From: Gibbula magus | Lineage: Eukaryota > Mollusca > Gastropoda > Trochida > Trochidae | Reading direction: 5' to 3' | Length of the DNA stretch: 64,000 bases | Assembly (NCBI GenBank): GCA_936450465.1 | Contig: OW388302.1 | Span: forward strand, 56,548,959-56,612,958 | Shown: one piece after another, positions 21,007 to 64,000 of the stretch | Layout: the number at the start of each line of letters is the position of its first letter | How positions within the stretch are numbered: the first letter of the stretch is position 1 | Made by a program: the position numbers and the translations under genes | Notes under the pieces: generated by a model | Seen by the model: only the letters and a program-made list of their open reading frames with translations | What the model was told of the DNA's origin: nothing | The model's database searches: none

Positions 21007-23059
21007 TCACTTTGAATAGGAATGATCCCAGTCAGTACTGGTGGATGGTTTAGGATCCAGCTGACCCTTTCTGTAATCACACTTGTCCTTCATGGATGTT
21101 TTGGCCTCAATGAAGTCAGAAATCTGCTGTCCTTGCTGTAATAACCTTCTCTTAACAACACCACTGTTCTTATTGTACATCTTTTGATAGTCTGCATCCT
21201 CATCCATTCTGCGCAAAGATCGAACTGATCCCGCAGATAGATGTACACCTAGGCACTGTGTTTTCGCAATGGCTGAAGTCCCAGGTCCATTATTCAGCCT
21301 GTGGATTGTTGACGATGCCCGGCCGATGTAATTTCTTGAGAAGTTGACATTTTTGGGTAGAGATACACTCAGAGATCTGTTTGCTGCTTCACATTTTTGA
21401 GTGTCAGTATAAAATTTCATGTGTTCCACCACTTCAACACTTAGTTTCATCTTCAAGATTTCATGTAGGAGATGTTTGTCACTGTCATTCATATTGAAAC
21501 TTGATATCTTGTTCTTGCAGAGATGCATCGACCGAGTCCACCAGCTACGGGAAACTCCACCACTGCAGACCACAGAGTGTCGGGCACATCGCGAACAGTC
21601 TCCAGTATAACACAGAAGCGTCGCCTCGAGGACTCTAGGTAAGATACTCCACAGTGTCTTCATGTCGCCAGCATGAGTTTTCATCAGTTCCTTAAGAATA
21701 AGACTGCAGCGTGCCTTTACATCTTGACTAAGCACTCTCTGTTGCTGCTTCCTCCGCTCACGGGTGGTGCCCGCAAACATCTCAGCACTGAAGTTAGCCT
21801 TGTAGCATTTACGGAATTGTCCTTGAGCTAGATGAGTAGGGTCAGCAAGTCGTTCGACCTTCCACATGGGATCAATGATCTTCATAGCTCTGTCTACACC
21901 CCGCTGACCTTGAGTCACCATCCGTTGTGACATACTTGATCAGCATTCCCTGTAAGGCCAGTTGATCACCAATGTCCTTCCCCATACCCATTTCTGAAAA
22001 TGGAGCAAATGTTGACATATTTGCTGTGCAATCGGCATGTCCTCCTGGACAGGTCACTTCCAGCCCCTTCCCTCTCAGCCAGGCTCCAGTCCAGCATAGC
22101 TTGTTTTGAAAGGATGCACCAATGATATATTTCTTATCAGTCACAGTTTCACAAGCGAGGCCGATGGCTAGAGAGGCATTTTGACCTGGCTTCTTCCTAC
22201 TAGCTATAGTCGTGGAATTGTAGCGGCCGTCCATGGCGATGTTCACTTCATTCAACTCCACACCTCTCTCGCTGTTGACTTGCTTTATGAGTTGAACCTT
22301 GTCGCCCATATCTTTAGTGTTCAGTTCAGTCACAGCACTTCCAACTCGATTAGCTGTTCTTTGCATGCTGCTTCTAGCCGGGGGAACCATGTCCATTGTA
22401 GCCATGAGAAGCCTTGCTCTGGTGGTGCTGATCGGTGTGTCTTGTAGTCCAACAGCCAGGGATAAGTTTGCTGCTGCTGGGTTTGGTCCTGGCTTATCTT
22501 GTTTCACCTCCTTGTACAGCTTCATCTCAGGTGTTTCAAAGTCACATGTCACACATTTTAGCACTATCCTCCAGCAGACACCCCATTTTCTCTCCCGATG
22601 TATCACAAGGTGGGTGTCAGTGCAGTCGGGAGACGTCAAACGGTGAAGGCGGTTACCCTCATTCCAGCAATTGGCCATTTCGGCACTGTCAACCAGTCGC
22701 ATTCCTTCACCGTCAGGAGAACTGCGTTCGTCTTGCGACTTGGGCTTGTCAGCTGGCAACGGACGAAGGAGACGGACTGAGCTGGAGATACCCTCACAGT
22801 CTGGTGTAGAAAGAACAGATCCATCAGACCTTGACTTTGCAACCAGTTTGAACTGCTCAGCACTCATCCTGGTGACAGACTTCTGTTGTGTTTGATGTGA
22901 GAGGTCTAGTCCATCTTCAGCATCAAAAGTCAGACCTTGATTCCATGGAATATTGCCCTTCTGAAAGCCTTGAGTGCGCCGCTGTCTGTCTCCTTTCATG
23001 TTCGAACGTAAAGTTGAAATGATACAGCACAGGTAGAGGCTGCACATTTTATACACCAT
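21007..23059 (-). pseudogene. Mutator-like transposase, frameshifted
   Basis: Two overlapping minus-strand frames (395 then 308 residues) form one transposase of the Mutator-like domain type. The first carries EVNIAMDGRYN, GQNASLAIG, CPGGHADCTA and KYVTTDGDSRS near its end. The second starts around VDRAMKIIDPMWKVERLADP and continues with QGQFRKCYKANFSAEMF and a Cys-rich stretch LCYTGDCSRC. The shift falls at the run of four C at about 21899-21902, so a one-base indel is the likely cause. The gene converges on the His-Me endonuclease. It is probably inactive here, although the 451-bp flanks are near-identical, so the indel is recent or a sequencing error. Confidence 0.75.
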
Positions 23060-35424: not shown

Positions 35425-36747
35425 ATGGGTCGTACAGGCAAAAAAAAAAGAACTTCATCTATGGATGATAGTCTCTCTTCCGAGGAAGAGATAACTCCAT
35501 TAAAAAAAACAATTTCAAAATCCAAATCAACTTCAATTTCAATAACCTCAAACAACTGGCCGCGTTTTTTGGTTATATCATCGACTGATGATAAACCTTT
35601 ACGTTTAAATCCCTTTGCCACCGCCAAGACCATCCAAGGGTTGGCCGGTGATGTGAAGGATGTGAAGAAGATCAGGAATGGGTACCTTCTTGTGGAAGTT
35701 AAAACACAACAACAAGCCAAATCTCTTTTAACCTTAAAAACCATTGTTGATAAACCTGTTCAGGTTTCCCCTCATACAACTCTAAACAGCAGCAAAGCCA
35801 TCATCCGGGACAAGGATCGCTGTCTCGATGATTCATCAGAACAGGAGCTCCTTGACAACCTCAAGAGCCAGGCAGTGACTGCTGTGAAGCGGTTCACTAT
35901 AAAAAAAGAAGGCAATATCATCAAGACGCACACGTACCTTTTAACGTTCTCAACTCCACAAGCTCCAAAAACAGTTTATGCAGGGTATTACAAGCTCCCT
36001 ACAGAACTCTACATTCCCAAACCCCTCCGTTGCTACCGGTGCCAGAAGTTTGGCCATGGAAGCAACTCTTGCAAAGCGGATGAGCGTGTTTGTCCTCAGT
36101 GTGGCAAACTCGAGGATGACAGCCATCCAGAGAAATGCAAAGAGTTGCCGAAATGCGCCAACTGTGCTGGCGAACACATGGCTTCCTCCAAGGAGTGCCC
36201 TCGGTGGCAACAGGAATCTAAAATCCTTAAACTTAAATTTACGCAAAATATCTCTTTTCCCGAAGCCAAACGCCTGGTTCTTGAGGGTCCTAAACCCTCA
36301 TACTCCACCATTGTATCTTCAGCGAGTGTCACTAAACGCTCCGTCTCCACTCAGACAGACATTGAGTGGGTCAGTGACCCACCAACTCAGCACAAACTGC
36401 GCAATGCTACATCTTCCACAATAGGTACCATGACATTCCCTCTTCTATCCGTCAAAGAGCCTGTCAAACCGACAGGTTCCCAAAAAAATCCAAAAGAAAA
36501 TCAAAAACCAAAGGCAAATCAAAACTCCAAAACTGCAAGCAAATCAAAAAACAACTCATCAAACCGCACTCCCAAAGGCCAAAGGAATGCGGTCGAGATC
36601 CACAACAAGTATGGATCTCTCGACCTTGAGTCTGATGACGTCCTTATGGACGCATCAGACACAGCGTCCCTTAACAACTCGCCCAAAAAGGGGCACAGGG
36701 CTCGGTCCAAGGACCGTCGGCTTTCTCCAGTAAAACCTCCACCATGA
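35425..36747 (+). CDS. LINE ORF1, Gag-like nucleic-acid-binding protein
   Basis: About 440 residues if translation starts at MGRTGKKKRTSSMDD (35425); an in-frame ATG at 35362 adds 21 residues that look like translated UTR. An RRM-like or divergent N-terminal domain is followed by CCHC/CCHC-type zinc knuckles: CYRCQKFGHGSNSCK, CPQCGKLEDDSHPEKC and CANCAGEHMASSKECP. The C-terminus is basic and Ser/Asn-rich. It should coat the LINE RNA in the ribonucleoprotein particle. Its stop codon TGA overlaps the ORF2 start. Confidence 0.9.
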   Translation: MGRTGKKKRTSSMDDSLSSEEEITPLKKTISKSKSTSISITSNNWPRFLVISSTDDKPLRLNPFATAKTIQGLAGDVKDVKKIRNGYLLVEVKTQQQAKSLLTLKTIVDKPVQVSPHTTLNSSKAIIRDKDRCLDDSSEQELLDNLKSQAVTAVKRFTIKKEGNIIKTHTYLLTFSTPQAPKTVYAGYYKLPTELYIPKPLRCYRCQKFGHGSNSCKADERVCPQCGKLEDDSHPEKCKELPKCANCAGEHMASSKECPRWQQESKILKLKFTQNISFPEAKRLVLEGPKPSYSTIVSSASVTKRSVSTQTDIEWVSDPPTQHKLRNATSSTIGTMTFPLLSVKEPVKPTGSQKNPKENQKPKANQNSKTASKSKNNSSNRTPKGQRNAVEIHNKYGSLDLESDDVLMDASDTASLNNSPKKGHRARSKDRRLSPVKPPP

Positions 36748-39700
36748 GGCTTTTAATATTGTATTTTATCCTAGCATCCATGGCGATTCTGCAGTGGAAT
36801 TGTCGAGGCTTTAAGGTAAATTTAAATGAATTGGGATTGTTGGCCCAACAATACAATCCCCAAGCTATTTGTCTTCAAGAAACTCATCTTAAAGAATCTG
36901 ATAAAGTTGCAATGAGACCATTCACTTTTTATAATTCTTTCTCCCCTTCTGCTGACAGGGCAAAAGGGGGTGCATCAATTTTAGTACGTGATGGAATTAT
37001 CCACAGAGAAATTCCATTAAAAACACAATTGCAAGCTGTAGCTGTCAGCTTATCATTATTTAAAACTTTAACTCTTTGTTCTTTATATATTCCACCATCT
37101 CAAGATCTTACTATAAAAGATCTTGATCATCTTGTTACCCAATTACCTAAACCTTTTATTATCATGGGTGACTTCAACGGTCACAATCCCCTCTGGGGTA
37201 GTAATACCCTAGACTCTAGGGGTAAAATACTTGAAAATTTCCTCACTCATAATGATTTATGTCTATTTAACGATGGTTCAAACACATATCTACATCCTGC
37301 TACAGGATCTTATACAGCTATAGATTTATCAGTAACTGATGCATCCCTATTACATGACTTTTCATGGTCAGTCCATGAGGATACATGTGGAAGTGACCAC
37401 TTCCCCATTGTATTAGAACCCTCATCACCTATTCCCGAGGAGCACAATCCTCGATGGAAATTTTCCAAGGCTGATTGGGGTACATTTTCTACCCTCTGCC
37501 GTGAACATATTATATATGATGAAATAATCAATGCAACTGATCCTGTTGAGGCCTTTTCTAAAGGTCTCATTGATATAGCAACTGAAACTATCCCTAAAAC
37601 CTCGGCAAATCCACGCATTCACAAGCCATGGTTTAATGAAACCTGCGATACTGCCATTAAGGCACGTAAAAAAGCTGAACGCAAGCTCAGTAAACGACCT
37701 ACAAGAATTAATTTAGATAACTGTCGCAAAGCACGAGCTAAAGCTCGACGCACAGTCAACCAACAAAAACGCGAATCTTGGAGAGGCTATGTCTCTAAGA
37801 TCAATTCCAGAACACCTATCAGCAAGGTCTGGAATATGATTAGTAGAATTAAAGGCAAAGGTTCTAAATCTACAATAAAACATCTTAAGGTCAATGATGA
37901 CCTTCTCACATCAAAATCTGATATTGCCAATAAGTTGGCTGAAACAATCTCTAAAAATTCTTCATCTGCAAATTATGTCCCTGCTTTCCAAAAGTACCAA
38001 AAGGTACAGGAAAAACGACCACTTAATTTCAAATCGGACAATGGAGAAGATTATAATGAACACTTCTCCTTGTCGGAGCTCAAAACTGCACTTTCTAAAG
38101 CTCATGATACAGCTACCGGCCCTGATGAAATCCATTATCAACTTCTAAAACATTTACCGGAACCTTGCCTTGAAGTTCTACTTCAGGTATTTAATCATAT
38201 ATGGGAATCAGGTGAATTTCCATCTTGTTGGCACACTGCTACTATTGTGCCTATCCCAAAACCTGGGAAGGATCACACAGACCCTTCCAACTACCGTCCT
38301 ATAGCCTTAACAAGTTGTGTATGTAAAACTATGGAACGGATGATCAATGATCGTCTAGTTTGGTACTTGGAAACTAATAAATTACTAACTGATATTCAAT
38401 GTGGTTTCCGCAAACAACGCAGTACCACTGATCATCTTGTTCGTTTAGAATCATTTATTCGTGATGCATTTATTAACAAACAACATGCTGTGTCTATCTT
38501 TTTCGATTTAGAAAAAGCTTACGACACTACATGGAAGCATGGCATCCTAAAAGATTTATTTGAATTTGGCTTGCGAGGTCGTATGCCTCATTTTATATCC
38601 AATTTTTTACATGATCGCCAATTTAAAGTGCGCGTGGGTTCCACCCTTTCTGATTTCTTTGATCAAGAAATGGGTGTCCCACAAGGTAGCATTTTATCTG
38701 TCACATTATTTAGCATTAAAATCAACAGCTTGGCTAAAGTCTTAAATGATCATACAGATGGTTCACTTTTTGTGGACGATTTTGGAGTTTCCTGCAGAGG
38801 CAAAAATATGCCATCAATCGAGCGCCAATTGCAACTCTGCCTCAATAAAATCCATCAATGGTCGTTGGAAAACGGCTTCAAATTTTCCAAAGCTAAAACA
38901 TCTTGTGTGCATTTTTGCAATATGCGCAAAATGCACAAAGATCCAGAATTATTCCTTGATAAAACTCCAATTAAAGTCGTTCCTGAGGCCAAGTTTCTTG
39001 GTCTCACTTTTGATAGTAAACTTTCTTTTATTCCTCATCTTAAAAATCTAAAAGCTAAATGCTTAAAGGCATTAGACCTTTTAAAGGTCGTTTCAAACAA
39101 TAAATGGGGTGGAGATGAAGAAACTCTTCTTCATCTCTATCGATCACTCATCCGCTCCAAACTGGATTATGGATCCATAATATATGGATCTGCCCGCCCC
39201 TCATATATCAAAATGCTAGATACAATCCACCATCAGGGTCTCAGGCTTTGTCTTGGGGCCTTCAGAACTTCACCAGTTGAAAGCCTTTACGTTGAAGCTG
39301 ATGAGCCATCTCTTGAAGATCGGCGCATCAAGCTAGCACTTCAATATATAACCAAATTAAAATCAAACCCTTCAAATCCTGCATACAACTGCGTATTCAA
39401 TCCTGAATACCAGCAGTTGTATAACTCAAAACCTAAAGCAATTCCACCACTCGGTATCAGACTTCAACAACATGTTGAAGATTGTGATATCGACCTAACA
39501 ACAATAGCAGAGCACGGTCTGCTTGCCACTCCGCCATGGCAGCTGGTGAGGCCCCGTGTCAACCTCTCTTTATCTACTCATAAAAAATCAAATACAGACC
39601 AATTAATATTTCGACAGTCATTTTTTGAACTTCGTAATTTTTTCGCAGATTATAAACCAATTTACACTGACGGTTCTAAAGATGGACCCACAGTTGCAGC

Positions 39701-40448
39701 AGCAACTGTGACTCCTTCAACAACATATGCTACAAGGCTGCATGATGGCAGCAGCATCTTTACTGCAGAAGCTAAGGCCATCCTTAAGGCCGTCCATCAC
39801 ATTAAAAACTCAACCCCTAATAATTACATTATTTTTTCTGATTCACTTTCTTGCCTACAAGCAATTAAAAACTGTAAGAGTGATCATCCAATTATCAGGG
39901 ATATTTTATTACTTCATAATTCGTGTCTCCAATGCGACATCGTCTTCTGCTGGCTTCCTAGCCATATGGGTATAAGAGGTAATAGCAAAGCTGACTCAGC
40001 AGCTAAATCAGCATTAAACCTCAAACATATTTCTCCCACTAAAGTTCCATATACGGATTCTAAACCTGCTATTAAATCTTACATTAAAGAACGTTGGAAG
40101 TCCCAATGGGACCAACAACATCATAACAAACTTCACACTATTCAACCTCATTTAGGATACAAATCTCTATCATCTTTTACCCGGCAGGAAGCTTGTGTCC
40201 TACGACGATGTCGTATTGGACACTCTCATCTTACACACTCATATCTTTTAAAGGGGGAAGATCCCCCAGTATGTATACCCTGTCAGTGTCCTCTCACAAT
40301 CAAACACATTCTATGTGAGTGTTGGGACACTGCACATATCAGGGAAACTTTTTATCCTTCTATTTCAATCAATCAAGTTTTTACTCATTTCGGTGAGCAT
40401 CGTGTTTTAGATTTTTTAAAGGCTGTACACCTTATTGACAAATTGTGA
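36744..40448 (+). CDS. LINE ORF2: endonuclease, reverse transcriptase, RNase H
   Basis: 1234 residues, uninterrupted. The ATG overlaps the ORF1 stop as ATGA, suggesting termination-reinitiation; an alternative start is M13 (MAILQWNCRG). The APE endonuclease spans about 14-225: N19, E46 (QETH), D143/N145 (GDFNGHN) and SDH 217-219. Reverse transcriptase spans about 480-760: PSNYRPIAL, FFDLEKAYD, MGVPQGSILS, and the catalytic box FVDD near 676-679 instead of the common FADD. RNase H spans about 970-1100: YTDGSKDG, FTAEAKAI, IFSDSLS, WLPSHMGIRGN. A C-terminal H..H / C..C zinc-like motif follows. All catalytic residues are present. It performs target-primed reverse transcription in the nucleus. 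Confidence 0.95.
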   Translation: MRLLILYFILASMAILQWNCRGFKVNLNELGLLAQQYNPQAICLQETHLKESDKVAMRPFTFYNSFSPSADRAKGGASILVRDGIIHREIPLKTQLQAVAVSLSLFKTLTLCSLYIPPSQDLTIKDLDHLVTQLPKPFIIMGDFNGHNPLWGSNTLDSRGKILENFLTHNDLCLFNDGSNTYLHPATGSYTAIDLSVTDASLLHDFSWSVHEDTCGSDHFPIVLEPSSPIPEEHNPRWKFSKADWGTFSTLCREHIIYDEIINATDPVEAFSKGLIDIATETIPKTSANPRIHKPWFNETCDTAIKARKKAERKLSKRPTRINLDNCRKARAKARRTVNQQKRESWRGYVSKINSRTPISKVWNMISRIKGKGSKSTIKHLKVNDDLLTSKSDIANKLAETISKNSSSANYVPAFQKYQKVQEKRPLNFKSDNGEDYNEHFSLSELKTALSKAHDTATGPDEIHYQLLKHLPEPCLEVLLQVFNHIWESGEFPSCWHTATIVPIPKPGKDHTDPSNYRPIALTSCVCKTMERMINDRLVWYLETNKLLTDIQCGFRKQRSTTDHLVRLESFIRDAFINKQHAVSIFFDLEKAYDTTWKHGILKDLFEFGLRGRMPHFISNFLHDRQFKVRVGSTLSDFFDQEMGVPQGSILSVTLFSIKINSLAKVLNDHTDGSLFVDDFGVSCRGKNMPSIERQLQLCLNKIHQWSLENGFKFSKAKTSCVHFCNMRKMHKDPELFLDKTPIKVVPEAKFLGLTFDSKLSFIPHLKNLKAKCLKALDLLKVVSNNKWGGDEETLLHLYRSLIRSKLDYGSIIYGSARPSYIKMLDTIHHQGLRLCLGAFRTSPVESLYVEADEPSLEDRRIKLALQYITKLKSNPSNPAYNCVFNPEYQQLYNSKPKAIPPLGIRLQQHVEDCDIDLTTIAEHGLLATPPWQLVRPRVNLSLSTHKKSNTDQLIFRQSFFELRNFFADYKPIYTDGSKDGPTVAAATVTPSTTYATRLHDGSSIFTAEAKAILKAVHHIKNSTPNNYIIFSDSLSCLQAIKNCKSDHPIIRDILLLHNSCLQCDIVFCWLPSHMGIRGNSKADSAAKSALNLKHISPTKVPYTDSKPAIKSYIKERWKSQWDQQHHNKLHTIQPHLGYKSLSSFTRQEACVLRRCRIGHSHLTHSYLLKGEDPPVCIPCQCPLTIKHILCECWDTAHIRETFYPSISINQVFTHFGEHRVLDFLKAVHLIDKL

Positions 40449-53119: not shown

Positions 53120-53282
53120 ATGTTTACACACCTAGCAACCGGGGACATTCATATATATGTAAACACACCTAGCAACCGGGGACATTCATATGTATACACA
53201 CCTAGCAACCGGGGACATTCATATGCATATACACCTAGCAACCGGGGACATTCATATGTATATACACACCTATCAACCGGGG
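53120..53282. repeat. Tandem array, five units of about 33-37 bp
   Basis: Units ACACACCTAGCAACCGGGGA plus CATTCATATGTAT. The last is cut within CAACCGGGG by the truncated LINE copy. Confidence 0.9.
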
Positions 53283-55839
53283 AGTAAACGACCTACAAGA
53301 ATTAACTTAGATAACTGTCGCAAGGCACGAGCTAAAGCTCGACGCACAGTCAACCAACAAAAACGCGAATCTTGGAGAGGCTATGTCTCTAAGATCAATT
53401 CCAGAACACCTATCAGCAAAGTCTGGAATATGATTAGTAGAATTAAAGGTAAAGGTTCCAAATCTACAATAAAACATCTTAAGGTCAATGAGGACCTTCT
53501 TACATCAAAATCTGACATTGCCAATAAGTTGGCTGAAACAATCTCTAAAAATTCTTCATCTGCAAATTATGTCCCTGCTTTCCAAAAGTACCAAAAGGTA
53601 CAGGAAAAACGACCACTTAATTTCAAATCTGACAATGGAGAAGATTATAATGAACACTTCTCCTTGTCAGAGCTGAAAACTGCACTTTCTAAAGCTCATG
53701 ATACAGCAACTGGCCCTGATGAAATCCATTATCAGCTTTTAAAACATTTACCGGAACCTTGCCTTGAGGTTCTACTTCAGGTATTTAATCATATATGGGA
53801 AACAGGTGAATTTCCATCTTGTTGGCACAATGCTACTATTGTGCCAATCCCAAAACCTGGGAAGGATCATACAGACCCTTCCAACTACCGTCCTATAGCC
53901 TTAACAAGTTGCGTATGTAAAACTATGGAACGGATGATCAATGATCGTCTAGTTTGGTACTTGGAAACTAATAAATTACTAACTGATATTCAATGTGGTT
54001 TCCGCAAACAACGTAGTACCACTGATCATCTTGTTCGTTTAGAATCATTTATTCGTGATGCATTTATTAACAAACAACATGCTGTGTCTATCTTTTTCGA
54101 CTTAGAAAAAGCTTATGACACTACATGGAAGCATGGCATCCTAAAAGATTTATTTGAATTTGGCTTGCGAGGTCGTATGCCTCATTTTATTTCCAATTTT
54201 TTACATGATCGCCAATTTAAAGTGCGCGTGGGCTCCACTCTTTCTGATTTCTTTGATCAAGAAATGGGTGTCCCACAAGGTAGCATTTTATCTGTCACAT
54301 TATTTAGCATTAAAATCAACAGCTTGGCTAAAGTCTTAAATGATCATACAGATGGTTCACTTTTTGTGGACGATTTTGGAGTTTCCTGCAGAGGCAAAAA
54401 TATGCCATCAATCGAGCGCCAATTGCAACTCTGCCTCAATAAAATCCATCAATGGTCGTTAGAAAACGGCTTCAAATTTTCCAAAGCTAAAACATCTTGC
54501 GTGCATTTTTGCAATATGCGCAAAATGCACCAAGATCCAGAACTATTTCTGGATAAAACTCCAATCAAAGTCGTTCCTGAGGCCAAGTTTCTTGGTCTTA
54601 CTTTTGACAGTAAATTATCATTTATCCCTCATATCAAAAACCTCAAAGCTAAATGCTTAAAGGCATTAGACCTTTTAAAGGTCGTTTCAAATAATAAATG
54701 GGGTGGAGATGAAGAAACTCTTCTTCATCTCTATCGATCACTCATCCGCTCCAAACTTGATTATGGATCCATAATATATGGATCTGCCCGCCCCTCATAT
54801 ATCAAAATGCTAGATACAATCCACCATCAAGGTCTCAGGCTTTGTCTTGGGGCCTTCAGGACTTCACCTGTTGAAAGCCTATACGTTGAAGCTGATGAGC
54901 CATCTCTTGAAGATCGGCGCATCAAGCTAGCACTTCAATATATAACTAAACTTAAAGCCAACCCTTGTAATCCTGCATACAACTGCGTATTCAACCCTGA
55001 ATACCAGCAGTTGTATAACTCAAAACCTAAAGCAATTCCACCACTCGGTATCAGACTTCAACAAAATGTTGAAGATTGTGATATCGACCTAACAACAATA
55101 GCAGAGCACGGTCTGCTTGCCACTCCGCCATGGCAGCTGGTGAGGCCCCGTGTCAACCTCTCTCTATCTACTCATAAAAAATCAAATACAGACCAATTAA
55201 TATTTCGACAGGCATTTTTTGAACTTCGTAATTTTTTCGCAGATTATAAACCAATTTACACTGACGGTTCTAAAGATGGACCCACAGTTGCAGCAGCAAC
55301 TGTGACTCCTTCAACAACATATGCTTCAAGGCTGCATGATGGCAGCAGCATCTTTACTGCAGAAGCTAAGGCCATCCTTAAGGCCGTCCATCACATTAAA
55401 AACTCAACCCCTAATAATTACATTATTTTTTCCGATTCCCTTTCTTGCCTACAAGCAATTAAAAACTGTAAGAGTGATCACCCAATTATCAGGGATATTT
55501 TATTACTTCATAATTCTTGTCTCCAATGCGACATCGTCTTCTGCTGGCTTCCTAGCCATATGGGTATAAGAGGTAATAACAAAGCTGACTCGGCAGCTAA
55601 ATCAGCATTAAACCTCAAACATATTTCTCCCACTAAAGTTCCATATACGGATTCTAAACCTGCTATTAAATCTTACATTAAAGAACGTTGGAAGTCCCAA
55701 TGGGACCAACAACATAATAACAAACTTCACACTATTCAACCTCATTTAGGATACAAATCTCTATCATCTTTCACCCGGCAGGAAGCTTGTGTCCTACGAC
55801 GATGTCGTATTGGACACTCTCATCTTACACACTCATATC
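53283..55839 (+). pseudogene. 5'-truncated LINE copy, interrupted by the Polinton-like element
   Basis: Matches 37689-40235 of the full-length LINE with only scattered differences (for example GEFPSCWHN versus GEFPSCWHT). It begins in the ORF2 linker after the endonuclease and contains all of the RT and RNase H, including the same FVDD box. It stops abruptly after ACTCATATC at 55839, where the inverted repeat of the next element begins. The remaining 3' end should lie beyond the window. Truncation and interruption make it non-functional. Confidence 0.93.
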
Positions 55840-55842
55840 AGT

Positions 55843-56045
55843 AGTTAGGGCAAATTGCTCGATGAGCGCACACCGAAAAAAAAATTTCCCCAGGGTGGGG
55901 GTAGTAGGGGGGTATGGGGAAAAGGGTAAAATAAAAAAATTATAGGATCTGTAATCGAGATGTTTCTAGGATTTGGGGTGAGAGAAAAAAAAGTTAAATT
56001 TTGAGGGTGTATTTTACAAGGTTAAGAGTGAAATTTACAAGGTTA
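55843..56045. repeat. Left terminal inverted repeat
   Basis: Starts AGTTAGGGCAAATTGCTCGA and matches the reverse complement of 63797-64000 almost perfectly for the first 165 bp, then with a few differences. It carries two copies of TTTACAAGGTTAA near its inner end and a G-rich block at 55893-55919. Confidence 0.95.
55893..55919 (+). other. G-quadruplex-type motif in the terminal repeat
   Basis: Four G tracts of 3, 5, 6 and 4 separated by 1-5 nt (GGGTGGGGG, TAGTA, GGGGGG, TAT, GGGG). The inverted copy is at 63924-63950. Confidence 0.85.
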
Positions 56046-56376
56046 AAAAGTAAAAAATAAAAACAGAAGAAATCGGGAATCGAGATAATTAAGGATTTAG
56101 AATTAGAAATAAGAACACTTTATAACGTACGGGCGATATGCATAGAAACCTGTTAGACTAGCGAGTATAATGCTAAAACCATTGATTTTCTATAGCCATT
56201 GTGCTGTGTACTTGAATGACTCAATGTACTGTGTTGTCACCCAGACTTGTTTACTGGTTACTAGGCATGTTGTTGATCGTTTCCAATGGTGAATGTCATG
56301 TGATATCCCTATGTTACAGTAAACACACGGCCATTTCTATTCAGACTGTCAAGGATAGCAGACGTATATTTCACTT

Positions 56377-57252
56377 ATGTCACAGGATAGTGTTGATACC
56401 GTGGACTTTTCCAGTCTAGAAAGAGAAACTGAGGAAGAAGCTGCCTGGGCAGATGATCAGAACACTCAGGAGTGCATAGACGATATTGATAGCTGTCTTG
56501 AAGAGAAAAGAGCTAGTGACGGAAAATCACAAATGGATCCTACTTTAAGAGAAGCTGCGGTCACCCCATTTACCAGTGAGCAGTTAGAAACAATAATGAC
56601 TCATAAACAATACCATACGAACATGTTGATGGTTCTGGATTCCATAGAAAAGACAGGGAAAAGTTTAGATAGTCTACCAAGAATGCCTAAAAAGCCGAGA
56701 GTGCACCTGGAATCATTATTGAAGTGTAAAAAACAAAAGGTGGGACTTACGTCAAAGGAGCTACATGACTATCTTGTGTCCCAGGTTGCAAAAGTAGCAA
56801 CAAAAATCGCTATTGAAGCCTTTACTGATGCAGAGCTTCTAGGCGAAATTATCTCAGAGCAGGACGCTATTACCAAACTTAATAGGGGTTTTAGTAATCT
56901 GAAAAAGTGTTCTGCTCAAAATTTGGTGTTGAGCTTACAGTTTGGAAAATATTTGATCAAGGCTAAGTTATGGCATAAAGAGCAATACAAAAAGGGAACT
57001 ATCCAAGAAAACTGGGCAACCTGGTTGAAAAGAACAACCGGTTACTCAGACCAACACTGCCGGAAACTAAGGGAGATGGCCAGTATAATGGGAGGATTTC
57101 CACATTTCTTCTATATCGGCGTTAGTTTCAATTATATCTACAGCAAGAAACATGACATAAAACTAATGCTGCAGATCCCGGAATTCCGCGACTTTTGGAA
57201 TAAGGATTATACCGGACCTACAACAAATGTCAATTTACCTCAATCACAGTGA
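56377..57252 (+). CDS. Unrecognised 291-residue protein, possible cargo gene
   Basis: A clean frame with an acidic N-terminus (LERETEEEAAWADDQ), a central helical part and a C-terminal region that looks like a helix-rich DNA-binding or winged domain (NWATWLKRTTGYSDQHCRKL then REMASIMGGFPHFFYIGVSF). Codon choice is clearly more GC-rich than that of the six AT-rich genes downstream, so it may have been acquired separately. It lies between the left inverted repeat and the hammerhead ribozyme. I cannot assign a family. It is neither a retroviral-type integrase (no DDE pattern) nor obviously a tyrosine recombinase. The start at 56377 is the first ATG of the frame. Confidence 0.6.
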   Translation: MSQDSVDTVDFSSLERETEEEAAWADDQNTQECIDDIDSCLEEKRASDGKSQMDPTLREAAVTPFTSEQLETIMTHKQYHTNMLMVLDSIEKTGKSLDSLPRMPKKPRVHLESLLKCKKQKVGLTSKELHDYLVSQVAKVATKIAIEAFTDAELLGEIISEQDAITKLNRGFSNLKKCSAQNLVLSLQFGKYLIKAKLWHKEQYKKGTIQENWATWLKRTTGYSDQHCRKLREMASIMGGFPHFFYIGVSFNYIYSKKHDIKLMLQIPEFRDFWNKDYTGPTTNVNLPQSQ

Positions 57253-57381
57253 AGTGTGTGGGCGTGGCATAGCCATATAAGGAGCGCTCATGCCATGAGC
57301 GGTAGGACTGGGTCGATAAACTGGTGCAATAAATTCTGGGTCAACACTAAATGACATGTTTGTTTAGAACTTTAAAAAAAA

Positions 57382-57453
57382 ACATGTCCACAGTTTTCCA
57401 ATTAATATTGGAAACCAAGCTGTGCTGATGAGCTGTGAGACAGCGAAACATGT
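57382..57453 (+). ncRNA. Hammerhead ribozyme, stem III open (type III topology)
   Basis: All conserved core positions are present. ACATGT (57382-57387) ends in U16.1 and is followed by cleavage base C17 (57388). Stem I pairs CACAG (57389-57393) with CTGTG (57420-57424) and is extended by an inner hairpin TTTCCAAT/ATTGGAAA with an asymmetric internal loop. CTGATGA lies at 57425-57431. Stem II is GCTGT/ACAGC with loop GAG. Then GAA (57445-57447) and ACATGT (57448-57453), which closes stem III with six pairs. Cleavage is predicted after 57388. It lies 66 nt before the ATPase start codon, sense to both neighbouring genes. Confidence 0.88.
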
Positions 57454-57509
57454 TATCCCCTAAATTACATAACACGGCCTCCCCTTAACACAACACAAAA
57501 CAAATTTAT

Positions 57510-57522
57510 TCTATAAAAAATG
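57510..57522 (+). promoter_or_regulatory. Start-proximal TCTATAAAAAATG motif (ATPase gene)
   Basis: The same motif recurs as TCTATAAAAATG at 59678-59689 and TTTATAAAAATG at 61254-61265, each ending in the start codon. Looser versions (CTGATAAAATG, CTTAAAAATG) precede the genes at 60361 and 59098. A TATA-like motif fused to the ATG is typical of late promoters in some large and satellite DNA viruses; function here is inferred. Confidence 0.5.
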
Positions 57523-58302
57523 GAAAACAATTTAGATTGGGAATGCGCATCAAACAGAAACAATTCACTAATTTTACCTAGATCAATCAGAGGATTAATT
57601 GTAGGTAAGTCGGGTTGTGGTAAAACAAACTTATTATTAAATTTATTATTAGAAAAAGATTTATTAGATTATAATAATTTAATTGTCTATGGAAAATCTT
57701 TATTTCAACCAAAATATAAAATAATGAAATTTGGCTTCGATAATAATTTAGACAAAGAAACAATTTGTAACCTATTTAAAAATAGAGAGAATCTAATAAA
57801 ACAAGATATTTCACCATATGAAGTAATAAAAGAAATTGGTGGTTCGATTACAAACAATAGTCCAATTAAATGTGAATTCTATGAAAAGGGTAATGACATT
57901 ATTGATCCAAAAGAGTTAAATTCAACTGATAAAAACTTAATGATCTTTGATGATGTCCTTTTAGAAAAACAAAACAAATGCAATGATTATTACACAAGGG
58001 GACGACATTCAAATGTTGATTGTTTCTATTTATCTCAAAATTACTTCCGTTTACCAAGACAGACAATTCGGGAAAACAGTAATTTCATTTGCTTATTTAA
58101 ACAAGATAACAAAAACATCCATCATATTTTCCAAGACCATGTGAGTCATGATATGGACTATGATGAATTCAAATCTTTATGTAACATCTGTTGGAGTAAA
58201 CCATATAATTTTTTAGTTATAGATAATTCTTCACCTATTGAAAATGGGAAATATAGAAATAATTTAGATGACTTTTATTTTCCTAAAAAGTTAAATAATT
58301 AA
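57520..58302 (+). CDS. A32/FtsK-HerA-type DNA packaging ATPase
   Basis: 260 residues. Walker A GKSGCGKT at 29-36, Walker B MIFDD at 141-145, and a downstream sensor-like segment YLSQNYFRLPRQTIREN (170-186), the pattern of viral genome-packaging ATPases of Polintons, adintoviruses and virophages. The length fits the family. It would power DNA entry into preformed capsids. It is the first of six closely spaced AT-rich genes; its stop codon is directly followed by the next ATG. No frame damage. Confidence 0.85.
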   Translation: MENNLDWECASNRNNSLILPRSIRGLIVGKSGCGKTNLLLNLLLEKDLLDYNNLIVYGKSLFQPKYKIMKFGFDNNLDKETICNLFKNRENLIKQDISPYEVIKEIGGSITNNSPIKCEFYEKGNDIIDPKELNSTDKNLMIFDDVLLEKQNKCNDYYTRGRHSNVDCFYLSQNYFRLPRQTIRENSNFICLFKQDNKNIHHIFQDHVSHDMDYDEFKSLCNICWSKPYNFLVIDNSSPIENGKYRNNLDDFYFPKKLNN

Positions 58303-59088
58303 ATGGACAATGAATTTTCCAAAAAGATGTTAGAAACACTTCAGGAGATAGCAAGAAATACATATCCAAAAGAGAGTAAACAATTTATCGTTAGTGAAAA
58401 TAAATCCGATTTCAATACAACATTTAATCCACCAATAACTTTAGATACAAATAAAAAATATGAGATTGCATTAGTTGATTTAGAAACGTATTACTCCATT
58501 CCTAATATTACAAGCGAAAATAATATCATTAGATATTATAAAAGAGAATTACATAATGATTCAATAAAAACGATTGAAATACCAGTTGGATCTTATGAAA
58601 TTAATGGTTTAAATAAAGAGATACAAAGACAATTAAGAAAGAATGGAGATAAAAATGCATTTAAAATAATTCCCAATTTAAATACTTTTAAAACAATATT
58701 AGAAATAAAATCTCCATATAATGTTTTATTTAACTATGATAACAGTATAAGACATATTTTAGGTTTTACTGAACTTTCCTATGGGCCAGGAGGATCACAC
58801 ATTTCAGAAAATATTGTGTCAATATTAGCAGTTAATTCGATTTTTATCCATATTAATATTATAAATGGTTCTATAGTAAATGGTGTACAAGAACCAGTTA
58901 TATATTCATTTTTCCCAAAGGTAAGTCCAGGTTATAAAATTGTTGAAAAACCAATTAATCCAATTTATTTACCAATAACATTAAATAATATACGAAATCT
59001 TCATATCAAAGTAACAGATCAAAATGGTATTCCCTTAGATTTTAGAGGAGAGGAAATCACGATCAGGTTTCATATAAGGCAAATTTAA
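58303..59088 (+). CDS. Probable minor capsid (penton-like) protein
   Basis: 261 residues. Beta-rich, with alternating hydrophobic strands, starting QFIVSENKSDFNTTFNPPI and continuing YEIALVDLETYYSIP, GSYEINGLNKEIQRQL, ILGFTELSYGPG, FFPKVSPGYKI and ending LDFRGEEITIRFHI. I recognise this as a recurrent protein of Polinton-like elements in invertebrate genomes; its length and strand-rich character fit a single-jelly-roll penton, but no fold can be proved by eye. The ATG directly abuts the ATPase stop (TAA-ATG). Confidence 0.5.
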   Translation: MDNEFSKKMLETLQEIARNTYPKESKQFIVSENKSDFNTTFNPPITLDTNKKYEIALVDLETYYSIPNITSENNIIRYYKRELHNDSIKTIEIPVGSYEINGLNKEIQRQLRKNGDKNAFKIIPNLNTFKTILEIKSPYNVLFNYDNSIRHILGFTELSYGPGGSHISENIVSILAVNSIFIHINIINGSIVNGVQEPVIYSFFPKVSPGYKIVEKPINPIYLPITLNNIRNLHIKVTDQNGIPLDFRGEEITIRFHIRQI

Positions 59089-59097
59089 TACTTAAAA

Positions 59098-59670
59098 ATG
59101 AAGACAAATTATATTGAACAAAGATTGGACATTTCAGAAAATCAAAAGGAGAAGGTAAAGCGTGCTATGCAAAACAATGAGGCAGTTACTATTAGAGTAG
59201 AAAATATTGGTAATGACATAATAGCTCTTACTGAAACACAAATTAACAAGATAAATAAGGCTTTTGAACAAAATAAGGGAGTTAACATTAAATTAAGTAA
59301 GCAACAATTAAAATATAATAAAGAACATGTAACTGGTGGTTTTATTGGAGCACTACTAGCTGGTTTATCTCAATTTGCTCTACCATTACTTTCAAAAGCA
59401 CTACCAGCTCTCGGAGTAGGTGCACTTTCTGGAGTAGCAAGTAATTTAGTAAATAAGGTTATGGGAAATGGATTGTACATGAAGCGAGGGGATCACATTG
59501 TTAAAGTAAAGGAATTTGGAAATGGAATCTATCTTAAACCACAACAAACAAACGAATTACAAACATATGGCAATGGGGTTTACTTAAAAAGAGATGGGGA
59601 ATTATTTGAGGGTTCTGGTGTCATTCATGAATTGGCTAAAAATATCCCCATATTAAATTTATTATTTTAA
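59098..59670 (+). CDS. Virion-associated amphipathic protein, adenovirus pVI-like in layout
   Basis: 190 residues. A charged N-terminus (residues 1-75), a glycine/alanine-rich hydrophobic helix at 79-120 (GGFIGALLAGLSQFALPLL and ALPALGVGALSGVAS), then three repeats of the GNG-[LIV]-Y-[LM]-K type near 123, 142 and 158, and a C-terminal IPILNLLF. The same layout recurs in other Polinton-like elements. A membrane-active or core-associated role is inferred from the amphipathic segment only. Confidence 0.5.
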   Translation: MKTNYIEQRLDISENQKEKVKRAMQNNEAVTIRVENIGNDIIALTETQINKINKAFEQNKGVNIKLSKQQLKYNKEHVTGGFIGALLAGLSQFALPLLSKALPALGVGALSGVASNLVNKVMGNGLYMKRGDHIVKVKEFGNGIYLKPQQTNELQTYGNGVYLKRDGELFEGSGVIHELAKNIPILNLLF

Positions 59671-59686
59671 TTTTTTTTCTATAAAA

Positions 59687-60331
59687 ATGGACATGGACAA
59701 TTATAAAGAGAAAATATATCCTAGATTAGATATTTTAAACCCGAGTGCACCACCTCACGCTGAAATTCCACTACCACCGTATGGTAGTAATTATCGCTTG
59801 CAATATATACAAGATATTAAAAAATACTTAGAGAAAAATAGTGAACAAAGACGTCAATTAAGTAAAAAATATAGTAAAGTATATAATTCATTACATTATA
59901 CAAATTATTTATTAAACTTAGTTTCCACAGGAGCTGCAATTGGCAGTGTTTCAACTTTATCAACAGTTGTCTTAATTCCAGTTTCAGTTATATTAGGTAG
60001 CGTTTCTATTGGCTGTGGTGCATTTAGTATTGTAATAAATAAACTTAGCAAAAAGATAAAACATAAACAAGATAAACATAGAGATATTTATAATTTAGCT
60101 GAAACCAAAATTAATTCAATTGAATCACTGATATCAAGAAGTTTACAAAATAATGATATTTCACACGATGAGTTCAATCTAATTTTAGAAGAGGAAAAGA
60201 AGTTCAATCAGTTAAAGGAAAATATTAGGTCAGCTAAAAATAAAAAGTTTTTCAAAGAAGATGAAATGAAACAAAAGGGAAGGAATGAAATTAAGGAGTC
60301 AATAAAAAAACTTATTGAAGTAAATAATTGA
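59687..60331 (+). CDS. Two-helix membrane protein of the virion block
   Basis: 214 residues. A proline-rich N-terminus (APPHAEIPLPPYG), two hydrophobic helices at about 72-118 (LLNLVSTGAAIGSVST and VVLIPVSVILGSVSIGCG) and a long charged coiled-coil-like C-terminus (SLISRSLQNNDISHDEFNLI). Preceded by a good TCTATAAAAATG motif. Function unknown; similar proteins accompany Polinton-like capsid genes in other invertebrates. Confidence 0.5.
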   Translation: MDMDNYKEKIYPRLDILNPSAPPHAEIPLPPYGSNYRLQYIQDIKKYLEKNSEQRRQLSKKYSKVYNSLHYTNYLLNLVSTGAAIGSVSTLSTVVLIPVSVILGSVSIGCGAFSIVINKLSKKIKHKQDKHRDIYNLAETKINSIESLISRSLQNNDISHDEFNLILEEEKKFNQLKENIRSAKNKKFFKEDEMKQKGRNEIKESIKKLIEVNN

Positions 60332-60360
60332 TTATCTTTAGTTAAAATAAGTCTGATAAA

Positions 60361-61260
60361 ATGCCTTTTGAAAAAATAAAAGATTTTAATAGACGCAATG
60401 AACTAGTAAAAGAATATTTAAGTTTAAGAAATCAATTAAAAGATAGATTTATATCAGAACGTATTGATACTGTTTATAGAAAAGAACAAATAAAAGAACA
60501 AAGTAAACCCGTAATTGATATGATAGGGAAACAATCTGAACAAAATAGATTATTAGCTATAAAACAAGATGAACAAAATAAGGCATTAAATAATACGTTA
60601 TTGATGTTAAAAGGAAATCTGCCAGCATATGAGGTCCCAACCCCACAAATAGAACATAAAGAGAGTATTTTAGATTTAAAAACTAGTCCATTAGCAGGAG
60701 AATATTTACAGAGTGGAATAAACAAAGCTGGTTATGATTCAACTTATGGAATTAAAGTAGGTCAGAATGGATTTGTTTTAGGTGATAAAAATATAAATAT
60801 CGAAGATGACTATATTAAAATTGGTAATGAGAGTTTTCGTGGTACAAGAGGTTTATACGAATTAATTACAAAAACTAATCCTAACAAAAATATTTTTGAT
60901 GATGATGATATTTCTAATTATATGGAGATAATGATGTTAACGAATAATATTTTAGATGAAAGGGGGCATCTAAAAAAGTCAACAAGTAAAAAATATAAGG
61001 AAATTTTAAGACCTTTAATTGATCATATGTATTTTGATAAAACAAGAAAGAAGAAAACTTCTGTTTCAGGAGAAGGCTTAAGAACAATAACTCTTTCTGA
61101 TGATCCAAATGCATTATTGGAGAGAATGGATTTATTATTTGCAAGTAAGGGAGCAGGTAATACTGGAGTGAATGATGAATTGAAAGCAATTATTAAAAGT
61201 TTATACAAGAAAAAAGTTATTGATAAAAATATTTTGAAAAATCTTATTTCTTCTTTATAA
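60361..61260 (+). CDS. Virion-block protein, uncharacterised, 299 residues
   Basis: A basic coiled-coil-rich first third (KDRFISERIDTVYRKEQIKE), then a compact conserved-looking domain at about 129-175 (YGIKVGQNGFVLGDKNI and FRGTRGLYELITKTNP), and a basic Gly/Ser-containing tail (RKKKTSVSGEGLRTI). The central domain recurs in many Polinton-like loci, but its biochemical role is unknown to me. The frame is intact. Confidence 0.5.
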   Translation: MPFEKIKDFNRRNELVKEYLSLRNQLKDRFISERIDTVYRKEQIKEQSKPVIDMIGKQSEQNRLLAIKQDEQNKALNNTLLMLKGNLPAYEVPTPQIEHKESILDLKTSPLAGEYLQSGINKAGYDSTYGIKVGQNGFVLGDKNINIEDDYIKIGNESFRGTRGLYELITKTNPNKNIFDDDDISNYMEIMMLTNNILDERGHLKKSTSKKYKEILRPLIDHMYFDKTRKKKTSVSGEGLRTITLSDDPNALLERMDLLFASKGAGNTGVNDELKAIIKSLYKKKVIDKNILKNLISSL

Positions 61261-61262
61261 AA

Positions 61263-61475
61263 ATGTATTATTATAATAAGAAAAAGAAAAGTCTGCTGCC
61301 TAAAAGAAGTGGAGGTGGGTTAATTGATTCAATAATTGGAGCTGTGACCAGCCAAGTAGCGAAAGATGCAGCAAAAGAAGTAACTAAAAAAGCAATTACA
61401 GAAATAGGAAATAGAGGTGCACAAAAAATAGTTGACAGAATTATTCCACCACCCTTACGTGAAGCAACAAGATAA
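61263..61475 (+). CDS. Small basic core-like protein, probably C-terminally truncated
   Basis: 70 residues: MYYYNKKKKSLLPKRSGGG, then a helical segment (VTSQVAKDAAKEVTKKAI) and IIPPPLREATR. The basic, Gly-containing start resembles small virion core proteins. It ends at the point where antisense polymerase sequence begins, so its natural C-terminus was probably lost in the internal deletion. Confidence 0.5.
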   Translation: MYYYNKKKKSLLPKRSGGGLIDSIIGAVTSQVAKDAAKEVTKKAITEIGNRGAQKIVDRIIPPPLREATR

Positions 61476-63628
61476 CAAGGATCTATTTCATGATGTTCTA
61501 AAAATACATTTCTGAATTTTTCAAATGAATCAGCTAAGATAAGGACATCAGTTTTTAGATAAAGGTTATGATAATCTTTTATTGTTTTACATTTGAATTT
61601 TTTCCATATATCTAAAGCGTGTTCTTTTTCCCTTTCGGTTATATCTTTATCAGCTAAGGTTGAATACCAATTGGAAACTTTTATACTAGTATTTTCAAAC
61701 CATTTAATTAAATATTTAGCTTGTAATTGTGTTTCTTTGTTAGGTAAGTATTTGTTAATGTTTTGTTTAAAATTTTGAATATCTTTCTGACTTCGATCTT
61801 TTTTTATTGTCTTATCAAATGAAGGTAATTTTGTTTCTTTTAATCTATTAAGATGATCAATGTATTCATAAGGAAAAATTCCTTTAAAACTTCTATTTGT
61901 CATATCAGAACCTTCAATAAATTTTAAGTTTTCAAATTGTTCATTCGTAAAATTTTCCTTCATTATGTTGAAATCAGAATCTTTAATTCCTTTTGAAATA
62001 TTACCTAAAGAACCTTGGAGAAATCTATAACTATCGAGAAATCTTAATTTATAACTTCTGTTCCCATAATCTATTGAGATATAATCTTCTGAATTTTTAG
62101 CTAAAACTGAAACTTTATTAAATTGATCTTCGTGTTTCATTAATTCTTCAATTATGAAATGAAAATCATATCCAGAACCATTATGAAATAATACTGGAAT
62201 GATTTTTGTTGCCTTTCCTTCTTTAGTATTACAAGATTGACAAGCAGCACCTCTGTATTTTCCATTAAAATGATTGTGTTCAATTATCTTTTTTGATTTA
62301 TCATTTTTTGAGTAATCATCAAATTCTTTATTACATATATAACAATTAGTAGCTTCATCAAAATCAAATTGTTCTCTTTTATTAAGGTTACTCTTATTTT
62401 TTTTGTATTTATGTGTTCTCTTACTTATAGCAATAAAATAGTCTACAATTGTTTCTATAAACTTTTCATTTGCATCTTCTCCAATATAAGAAGTATATTC
62501 ACTTTCAACTATGTTATTATACATTGATTTTAAATAAATACCATAACTTATTACTTCTTGTTTAAAAATAGGTTGTGTATAAGAGGTTTTTGGATTTAGA
62601 GTAGTTGTATGTATTTTCTTATTTGCTGCTTCAAAGTCACAGTATAAAACGAAAGGAAGTTTCGATTTATAATGAGGATTTTTAAATTCTAAATAAGTAT
62701 TTGGTTTTGGCATAATAGGTTTTGATAAAGATATTTTACAACAATCTTCTAAATGATTATCTAAAGCTTGTTGTGATGAATATAATTAAAAACATCTCCT
62801 ACATAAATATTTTTTATGATTACTTTTGTTATCATACATAATTGATTCAAGATTTTTTATCAAACAATAATGAGTAGTTCCATCTTGTTCTACATATAGT
62901 AAATCTATAGTATGTTGTCTTTGTTCCAATGAAATTCTTAATGGATAAATAGTTTTTAAATCATTGTTGTTTGATAAACCAAAAACATTTATACTAATTT
63001 CTTCATAATTATTTTCAAAAATATCTATATCTTTTATTTTAACTGGATATTGTATTTCATATCTATCAAACTCATGTTCATATGGTTTGTATTTACCTAC
63101 TCTTTGTGGATCTTTTCGGGGTTTAGTAAAATAAGATATAATACACCAAAGAAAACATTTATTATCATCGTTTTGTATATTAACTATACTATTAGATCTA
63201 AAAGTAAATTTAAAATAAGAACTACCTTTCAATGATCTTGTTTTTACAATGTTTAACTTAGTTTGATTTATTTCATCAAATACAAAACCACTTCCTCTTT
63301 CTTGATACCTGTCTAACCATGCGATAAAATCATGTTTAGTTTGATTTAAAAAAGAGGATAAGTGATTTTTAGAATTTAGTTGTTTATATATAGACCTATA
63401 ATAAGTTGTTATATTATATCTAGAATCAAAACTCATGGGAATATACATATTAACATGAAGTACTAATTGAATTTTATGAGTTCCTTCTGGTATTTCATGT
63501 GTAATTAATGGTTCTAACTCATTGAAATATTCATCAATATTTTCTCCACTTATTTCAAATGTATGACTTATAGTACCAACACTTTTTGTGGAATAGTAAT
63601 CTTTATTACTTGTTTTTTTCTTTGTCAT
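61476..63628 (-). pseudogene. Protein-primed-type DNA polymerase B, one stop codon, palm missing
   Basis: Leftward. A 280-residue N-terminal frame (63628-62786) ends at TAA 62786-62788 inside a C2H2-like finger. The same frame continues without a shift. The 62713 ATG frame then contains Exo I (LYCDFEA, residues 23-29), a zinc treble-clef endonuclease-VII-like module (CYICNKEF, IIEHNHFNGKYRG, CQSCN), Exo II (LFHNGSGYDFHF) and Exo III (YLKTDVLILAD). It breaks off near DPCYL; the residues after it are merely the antisense of the small gene at 61263. The polymerase palm motifs are absent, so replication activity is lost. This polymerase normally copies linear genomes from terminal protein. Confidence 0.85.
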
Positions 63629-63796
63629 TTTTTAAGGGATAGATTTAATAACCTTTTTTTGTTATATATTATTTTTCTACTTTTCTCTCACTTTTTACAT
63701 TTTTCCAGTATCTCGGACACCTAGGACAACTTTTTTACTTTCGCCCCCAAACCCAGAAACCTTTACAATTCCCCATAATAAATTTTTTTTCCATTT
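63629..63796. other. Short non-coding stretch upstream of the polymerase
   Basis: AT-rich, with TTATATATTA; presumably the leftward promoter. It ends at the right inverted repeat. Confidence 0.5.
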
Positions 63797-64000
63797 TTAA
63801 CCTTGTAAAATACAACCTTAACCTTGTAAAATACAAGGATAAAATTTAACTTTTTTTTCTCTCACCCCAAATCCTAGAAACATCTCGATTCCCCATCCTA
63901 TAATTTTTTTATTTTACCCTTTTCCCCATACCCCCCTACTACCCCCACCCTGGGGAAATTTTTTTTTCGGTGTGCGCTCATCGAGCAATTTGCCCTAACT
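63797..64000. repeat. Right terminal inverted repeat, reaching the window end
   Basis: Reverse complement of 55843-56045, including the C-rich complement of the G-quadruplex motif (63924-63950) and the terminal TTTGCCCTAACT. If the element starts at 55840, three further bases of the repeat lie outside the window. Confidence 0.95.

Follow-up and report, generated by a model that had tools for sequence, protein, structure and literature searches.

What would a self-cleaving RNA do between two genes of a virus-like DNA transposon? The question is raised by 72 nt of plus strand at 57382..57453 of the window, as we call the whole 64,000-nt stretch of Gibbula magus DNA analyzed here. Judged by its fold, by a covariance model of its relatives (R3), and by its sister loci, this segment is a complete type III hammerhead ribozyme for which self-cleavage is predicted. 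Stem III, at which the motif is open, pairs 57382-57387 with 57448-57453, and the GUC cleavage triplet at 57386..57388 places the predicted cut, as read from the sequence, between 57388 and 57389. Stem I together with its capping hairpin occupies 57389..57424; it has 5 bp (57389-57393/57420-57424) and an internal loop whose 3′ side is ACCAAG (57414-57419). The remaining plus-strand segment, 57425..57448, holds the CUGAUGA of the hammerhead core (57425-57431), stem II (57432-57436/57440-57444) closed by a GAG loop, and the GAAA of the core (57445-57448). When 57382-57453 is folded alone, the minimum free energy (MFE) structure has the hammerhead shape (-22.1 kcal/mol, z -3.49). The core bases, three stems, coordinates, strand, and predicted cut after 57388 given in the initial annotation are confirmed by the sequence and by this fold, which also upholds its assignment of a topology open at stem III. 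The three features of the extended type III form, namely a 5-bp stem I, an internal loop, and a capping hairpin, are all present in the Polinton ribozyme.

The Rfam models gave no gathering-score match for a hammerhead in the window, and a permissive local scan of the window returned a partial HH9 match alone (13.2 bits, E 1.5), so the Rfam check proposed in the initial annotation came out negative. We attribute this miss to the shape of stem I, a short helix with a bulge and a second hairpin as its cap; the gathering score is a detection aid and no defining feature of type III hammerheads. Model R3, trained on 12 hammerheads of the same genome that all lie outside Polinton copies, gives the window motif 72.7 bits (E about 2e-17), and its scores for nine sister copies range over 70.6-73.3 bits. 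The lack of a covariance-model hit, which the initial annotation would have counted against a hammerhead, therefore holds for the Rfam models but not for the relatives' own model. Chance resemblance was gauged with a descriptor slightly looser than the motif's own stems (III at least 5, I at least 5, II at least 4), which found 1 match in 4000 random 64-kb sequences with the dinucleotide make-up of the window; a looser descriptor found 7 in the same 4000. The whole window contains a single copy according to model R2, and the model search found no second such ribozyme at the other gene ends of the window.

The DNA around the ribozyme is a Polinton-type element of about 8.2 kb (55840..64000, with an apparent end at 64003, just past the window), as had been proposed. 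It is bounded by terminal inverted repeats (TIRs) of 218 nt that are 93% identical (55843-56060 and 63783-64000) and end in AGTAGTTAGGG, and by an apparent 6-bp target site duplication (TSD), CATATC, lying where a LINE-type reading frame ends; these junctions were read by eye. The first gene (56377..57252, plus strand, 291 aa) differs in sequence between copies; it matches no Pfam or PHROG family, and a protein search gave no homologue at E 0.001. The ribozyme begins 129 nt past its stop codon on the same strand, outside the TIRs and in single copy, and the ATG of an A32-type packaging ATPase (57520..58302, plus strand; Pox_A32 4.9e-8) follows 66 nt after the ribozyme ends. This ATPase is 59% identical to the FtsK of a Hydra adintovirus and has closer unnamed relatives at up to 79%; IMG/VR yielded no relative of it, whether the query was the single sequence or an alignment. 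Four further plus-strand open reading frames (ORFs) complete the ATPase-led block (58303..61260, starting at 58303, 59098, 59687, and 60361). The two minus-strand ORFs beyond it (61271..63628) contain Endonuclease_7 (7.1e-9), with an endonuclease-VII-like zinc motif, as their sole recognized domain; from polymerase motifs seen by eye, they appear to encode the N-terminal region of a protein-primed DNA polymerase, the rest of which is absent from the window copy. An rve integrase, also absent here, is encoded in the ribozyme-bearing sister L016. We take the window copy to be a Polinton-type element with an internal deletion, and no capsid gene was identified in it. Together, TIRs, apparent TSD, A32-type ATPase, and the integrase of the sister place the family with Polintons and adintoviruses.

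Several further observations were made on this element and its surroundings. A TCTATAAAAATG / TTTATAAAAATG motif stands on the plus strand of the Polinton at 57510, 59678, and 61254 and may be the promoter type of the element. The TCTATAAAAA-type motif lies directly at the ATPase ATG, and it recurs where the 59687 ORF starts and at an ATG at 61263 that opens an ORF in sister copies. Three IMG/VR matches to the ribozyme pattern were rejected, as they lack the ribozyme fold; their ORFs look phage-like by eye. The window also holds other mobile elements (8768-10177, 18660-19634, 21007-23059, 36744-40448, and 53190-55844), with transposases of DDE_1/Tc5, DDE_3/Tc3, and Mutator type and two reverse-transcriptase ORFs with RNase H, one of which also has an endonuclease.

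The 1.47-Gb genome contains 11 loci with the ATPase of this family at an identity of at least 84%, and at 10 of these the ribozyme occupies the matching place before the ATPase. It was not found at the eleventh (L027, C17), where the ATPase match begins at residue 30, or within about 1.5 kb on either side of 16 more distant ATPase-like loci (L032-L047). The initial annotation would have counted absence of the motif from all sister elements, with random substitutions in the core, as a refutation, and this is not what was seen. The position it gave for the ribozyme, with the first gene (variable, as found here) on one side and the ATPase-led block on the other, is borne out and kept in the sister copies. 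Across the 10 Polinton copies, 6 of 72 columns vary in the ribozyme, compared with 21 of 42 upstream and 27 of 68 downstream (Fisher 1e-6 and 2e-5, respectively); these values are indicative only, as gaps count as changes, columns are not independent, and the upstream stretch lies partly beyond the point where the copies cease to align. The pair L016 and L017 has no ribozyme difference in 72 positions against 6 in 41 upstream and 26 in 68 downstream (Fisher 3e-10 for the downstream comparison). Changes within the ribozyme are confined to the free core position (CUGAYGA), the first base of the internal loop, and the hairpin tip. At L009 and L012 the tip of the stem I hairpin is exactly inverted, AATATTAATT for AATTAATATT, as if the loop had been flipped. 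Conservation of this kind amid diverging flanks is, at the level of sequence comparison, the pattern of a selected RNA, and gene conversion limited to the ribozyme stretch may also give it. Identity between copies rises abruptly at 57348-57353. Before this point, the first gene of several copies has diverged or cannot be aligned; after it, starting with the ribozyme hairpin, the element copies share 91-99% identity. Gene swapping or fast evolution may underlie the divergence of the first gene.

The Polinton copies are not the only carriers. At least 66 related non-Polinton places, some of them decayed, were found in the same genome; this number is the union of several genome searches and excludes three type-I-like loci. 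A genome-wide search with RF00008 gave at least three relatives, all below the cut-off (68 of 187607 candidates scored). The suggestion that the motif might be a relic of another mobile RNA is therefore half right: the kinship is real, and the word relic is unfit because the motif is conserved while its flanks diverge. Alignment A4 gathers 17 distinct ribozymes and leaves out L048 (CAAA replacing GAAA), L054/L061 (decayed, same locus), and L062, L065, and L073 (bases missing in stem III). All 17 rows have the CUGANGA and GAAA core, an NUH cleavage triplet, and three stems, and in all 17 the triplet is GUC. Both sides change in 8 of 18 tested pairs, which belong to stems I, II, and III and to a contact between loop I and loop II; lower stem I covaries as well. 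None of 500 shuffles reached the A4 covariation score or percentage paired, scores that kinship among sequences can inflate, and in slid controls the pairing drops to 22.5-45.2%. Two cruder measures were less telling: the count of pairs with both-side changes was reached by 13 of 500 shuffles in A4 and by 243 of 500 in the smaller A2, and the number of pair types in A4 was matched by all 500. In the loop-loop contact, most Merlin-type and solo copies pair GCC to GGC or GGU, and ISL2EU-like copies pair CCC to GGG. Pairs 58-81 and 59-80 are intact in the 12 non-Polinton A4 rows, and 57-82 is intact in all but one of them; the Polinton rows of A4 are without Watson-Crick pairing between loops I and II, with four breaking two of the three pairs and the fifth breaking one.

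Some members of the wider collection stand apart. L053, L055, and L056, the three loci excluded above, are hammerhead-like around 1500 with a very short stem III and look by eye like minimal type I hammerheads such as Penelope elements carry; the type III model gives L053 and L056 about 13 bits each, and L055 is not among its listed matches. L067 and L068 belong to a repeat family with at least eight equal-scoring ribozyme matches, and about 1 kb downstream of the L068 ribozyme lies a THAP-like ORF (by eye; no Pfam match). Further copies such as L064, L067, and L075 have no gene linked to them.

Where genes are linked, the same ribozyme family accompanies Merlin-like, ISL2EU-like, and Harbinger-like elements besides the Polinton, by the evidence of sequence and position, and every gene-linked ribozyme found is in the sense strand of its gene. 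Among the best 22 of 109 Merlin-like transposase matches, four have a ribozyme within 4 kb, always in the orientation of the gene and close behind its 3′ end, at 71, 75, and 75 nt from the stop in the three measured. Three Merlin-like loci were assigned through PF12762, the ISXO2/IS1595-type DDE transposase domain that we take to be a Merlin marker (L048, 1.1e-14; L059, 2e-15; L060, 2e-12); no TIR was recognized at them. In the 2.4-kb piece L072, a YqaJ/PHD gene (YqaJ 1.8e-16) faces a DDE_Tnp_4 gene (5.4e-52), and downstream of each of these convergent genes, 130 and 219 nt past the stop, lies a ribozyme on the strand of that gene. L072 thereby has the two genes, for a YqaJ protein and a DDE transposase, by which ISL2EU elements are defined in the available text of PMC4482050. 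The convergent ribozyme pair, 287 nt apart, recurs in all seven copies of this first ISL2EU-like family, whose gene order was read in L072 only. In a second family, whose YqaJ protein shares 48% identity with that of the first, a ribozyme lies 127 nt past the stop and has no convergent partner within the next 1.9 kb; among the best 120 listed relatives of this protein, the top named are from Haliotis and Saccostrea, with Priapulus close behind. When the best 24 of 142 YqaJ rows (23 distinct loci) were compared against the 66 places, 10 loci had a ribozyme, one of them decayed, always on the same strand and 3′, and seven of the 10 also carry an opposite-strand ribozyme. The same comparison for 29 of 157 Harbinger-like rows (L066, for example, has DDE_Tnp_4 at 3.1e-21) found a ribozyme in seven, in each of which it shares the strand of the transposase match and precedes that match by 434-1101 nt. 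A general rule confining these ribozymes to 3′ untranslated regions (UTRs) is thereby rejected.

From the structure, covariation, conservation, and placement described above, we infer that the Polinton motif belongs to a transposon-borne family of selected ribozymes and that it cuts the mRNA of the upstream gene 129 nt past the stop codon to make its 3′ end, a reading whose chances we put at about even. The initial annotation had suggested self-cleavage separating two parts of one transcript, which is plausible from the position of the motif; the ISL2EU-like and Merlin-like cases favor the 3′ end of the upstream gene. Under this proposal, the first-gene transcript would cut itself after 57388, and its upstream product would end in an A-rich run and ...AAACAUGUC. 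The AAACAUGUC segment would then fold back on GACAUGUUU, up to the last base, to give a 3′-terminal hairpin. An mRNA 3′ end would thus be made without the host cleavage and polyadenylation machinery, and cutting would keep the first-gene transcript out of the ATPase-led block. The argument for applying this reading to the Polinton draws on the convergence of the L072 genes, which leaves each ribozyme only in the 3′ part of the transcript of its own gene, on the 3′ placement in Merlin-like loci, on the spacing of 129 nt from the first gene and 66 nt to the ATPase, and on the TCTATAAAAA-type motif at the ATPase start.

Several features speak against making the Polinton ribozyme a 3′-end former, including its lack of the loop-loop pairing of its relatives, the absence of such a ribozyme from the other gene ends of the window, and the Harbinger-like copies, whose upstream position means that 3′ placement is no universal rule. 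The upstream arm is a further difficulty. On the plus strand, GACAUGUUU (57353-57361) can pair with AAACAUGUC (57380-57388), forming a hairpin (57353..57388) that ends exactly at the predicted cut, includes the A-rich run, and competes with stem III. With this arm present, the active fold has -22.8 kcal/mol compared with -28.9 for the A1-A2 hairpin state and -30.4 for the MFE structure, energies that reflect secondary structure alone and ignore tertiary contacts. Since inactive folds are better by 6-8 kcal/mol, the ribozyme may be slow, gated, or active only co-transcriptionally. The arm is weakened in L016 (GACATTTTTG), and reading of the ISL2EU-like L072 revealed no comparable one. Signals of poly(A) type also count against the proposal: AATAAA, a possible host signal, stands at 57328..57333 on the plus strand, 54 nt before the ribozyme, and AATAAA or ATTAAA occurs within 110 nt upstream of the ribozyme in 7 of 10 Polinton copies, so host polyadenylation of the first gene is possible. 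The A-rich run itself is modest in the Polinton. The 30 nt before the three ISL2EU-like ribozymes measured contain 18-22 A, as against 0.29-0.30 further up, and the weaker Polinton run has 12-15 A in 30 nt in the seven copies measured; at four of six Merlin-type loci the figure is 11-12, nothing notable. The longest A runs at the Polinton and ISL2EU-like loci measured are 5-10.

Two other readings would also give the ribozyme a function in gene expression. It could lie in the 5′ leader of the ATPase-led transcript, where cleavage would drop the cap-proximal part and leave a virion-block message with a 5′-OH. HDV-like ribozymes at the 5′ ends of R2, RTE, and other LINEs, as described in the accessible part of PMC7936874, provide a parallel for such leader processing, the ATPase ATG is only 66 nt away, and the Harbinger-like ribozymes lie upstream of the transposase match on its strand in all seven cases found. 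We nevertheless consider it rather unlikely, given that the TCTATAAAAA-type motifs at the ATPase ATG, at 59687, and at the ATG at 61263 hint at transcript starts downstream of the ribozyme and that the convergent genes of L072 leave only a 3′ reading for each ribozyme. Cleavage in the 3′ UTR could instead lower expression of the first gene or shift its poly(A) site, with the upstream arm acting as a switch. That arm can block the ribozyme in two ways, the upstream poly(A)-type signal is kept in 7 of 10 copies, and a role in poly(A)-site control has been suggested for the type III hammerhead in the 3′ UTR of Clec2 (PMC6155905, in the portion available). Weakening of the arm in L016 and the lack of a visible one in L072 weigh on the other side, and a constant brake would presumably gain a mobile element little; we judge control of this kind unlikely.

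The remaining readings would assign the ribozyme no function in the expression of these genes. A mobile ribozyme unit might have inserted into transposons without taking on any role there, as the 66 related places, the many pairs of relatives whose alignment is limited to the roughly 75-nt unit, and the isolated motifs of similar kind in termite and fly genomes (PMC7936874, from the text available) would allow. No ribozyme was found in 22 of the 29 Harbinger-like rows compared, in 18 of the 22 Merlin-like ones, and in 13 of the 23 YqaJ loci, which this reading would also accommodate; these counts may include diverged ribozymes because the genome searches tolerate few mismatches or are limited in the number of matches reported. 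Several observations count against simple hitchhiking, which we regard as quite improbable: the ribozyme is conserved while its flanks diverge, every gene-linked copy found lies on the strand of its gene, and the ribozyme occupies equivalent positions behind YqaJ genes that encode proteins of just 48% identity. Least probable by far is that a DNA-level palindrome, serving as a signal for replication, packaging, or recombination, merely resembles a ribozyme. The self-complementary ACATGT does occur three times in 57354-57453, and the jump in identity between copies falls at 57348-57353, but the unpaired core is invariant save for its free position and the loop-loop contact covaries in the relatives, neither of which a DNA palindrome requires.

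In terms of known systems, the family shares its 5-bp stem I, internal loop, and capping hairpin with the extended type III hammerheads described from toad and termite HDV-like RNAs and from the genomes of termites and flies (PMC7936874, cited here and below from its available passages). The internal loop of that class is GCCR, and GCCA is found here in 8 of 17 A4 rows, two of them from Polintons; several solo relatives here also carry UGGC in loop II. The termite genomic copies are isolated motifs (PMC7936874), whereas those described here lie beside Polinton and other DNA-transposon genes, and the Polinton version is without the Watson-Crick loop-loop pairing. According to the accessible portions of PMC7229834 and PMC7761336, animal hammerheads are mostly type I and reside in retrozymes and Penelope-like elements, and plant LTR retrozymes have type III. 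These systems share with the present family the spread of hammerheads by mobile elements; unlike it, they are retroelements with ribozymes in repeated units, and here single sense copies occur in class II elements. A retrozyme or Penelope-like element at our locus was rejected on the grounds of a single copy in the window that lies outside the TIRs and of sisters that have the Polinton block in common. An excerpt of PMC6431247 ties hammerheads to Terminons and Penelope-like elements, and one of PMC11071296 mentions ribozymes in the context of anelloviruses. Schistosome W-elements are likewise repeated, putatively mobile, and equipped with hammerheads, but they are satellite-like repeats that, in the available text, lack genes flanking the ribozyme (PMC8490949).

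The discontinuous hammerhead of Clec2 shares the type III topology and the 3′ UTR location; it belongs to a host gene and has 150-1500 nt in helix I, in contrast to the compact 72-nt transposon motif, and the same source, as far as accessible, notes that natural hammerheads are sped up by loop-loop contacts (PMC6155905). An artificial counterpart to the proposed 3′ end also exists. The available part of PMC2680333 reports that engineered hammerhead-ended mRNA was untranslated and that a run of 60 A before the cut gave partial rescue in cells. That GFP-A60-hammerhead construct resembles the present arrangement in having a templated A run and then a hammerhead as the mRNA 3′ end, and differs in being artificial and in its 60 A, against longest runs of 5-10 here. 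As for Polintons and adintoviruses, the element shares their A32-type ATPase, TIRs, apparent 6-bp TSD, and rve integrase (in a sister copy) and departs from them in its hammerhead. The initial annotation knew of no described hammerhead in an animal Polinton, and none is reported in Polintons or in gene-bearing DNA transposons in the accessible parts of the open-access literature searched, most subscription papers lying outside it.

Animal hammerheads have so far been linked mainly to retroelements and RNA circles, where cutting serves the RNA replication cycle. For a conserved family beside class II and virus-like genes some other function has to be sought, and the formation of mRNA ends is the simplest candidate. 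A broader version of this idea, which we offer tentatively and hold to be doubtful rather than probable, is that an A-rich run plus a hammerhead constitutes a portable, host-independent mRNA 3′ end common to unrelated DNA transposons and the Polinton, with the ISL2EU-like pair ending convergent transcripts before they overlap. If that is true, the pair would also avoid double-stranded RNA and silencing. These loci would let poly(A)-independent mRNA ends be studied in a natural setting, and they hint that RNA parts are exchanged between unrelated mobile elements. The isolated type III hammerheads of animal genomes, in turn, gain a possible home.
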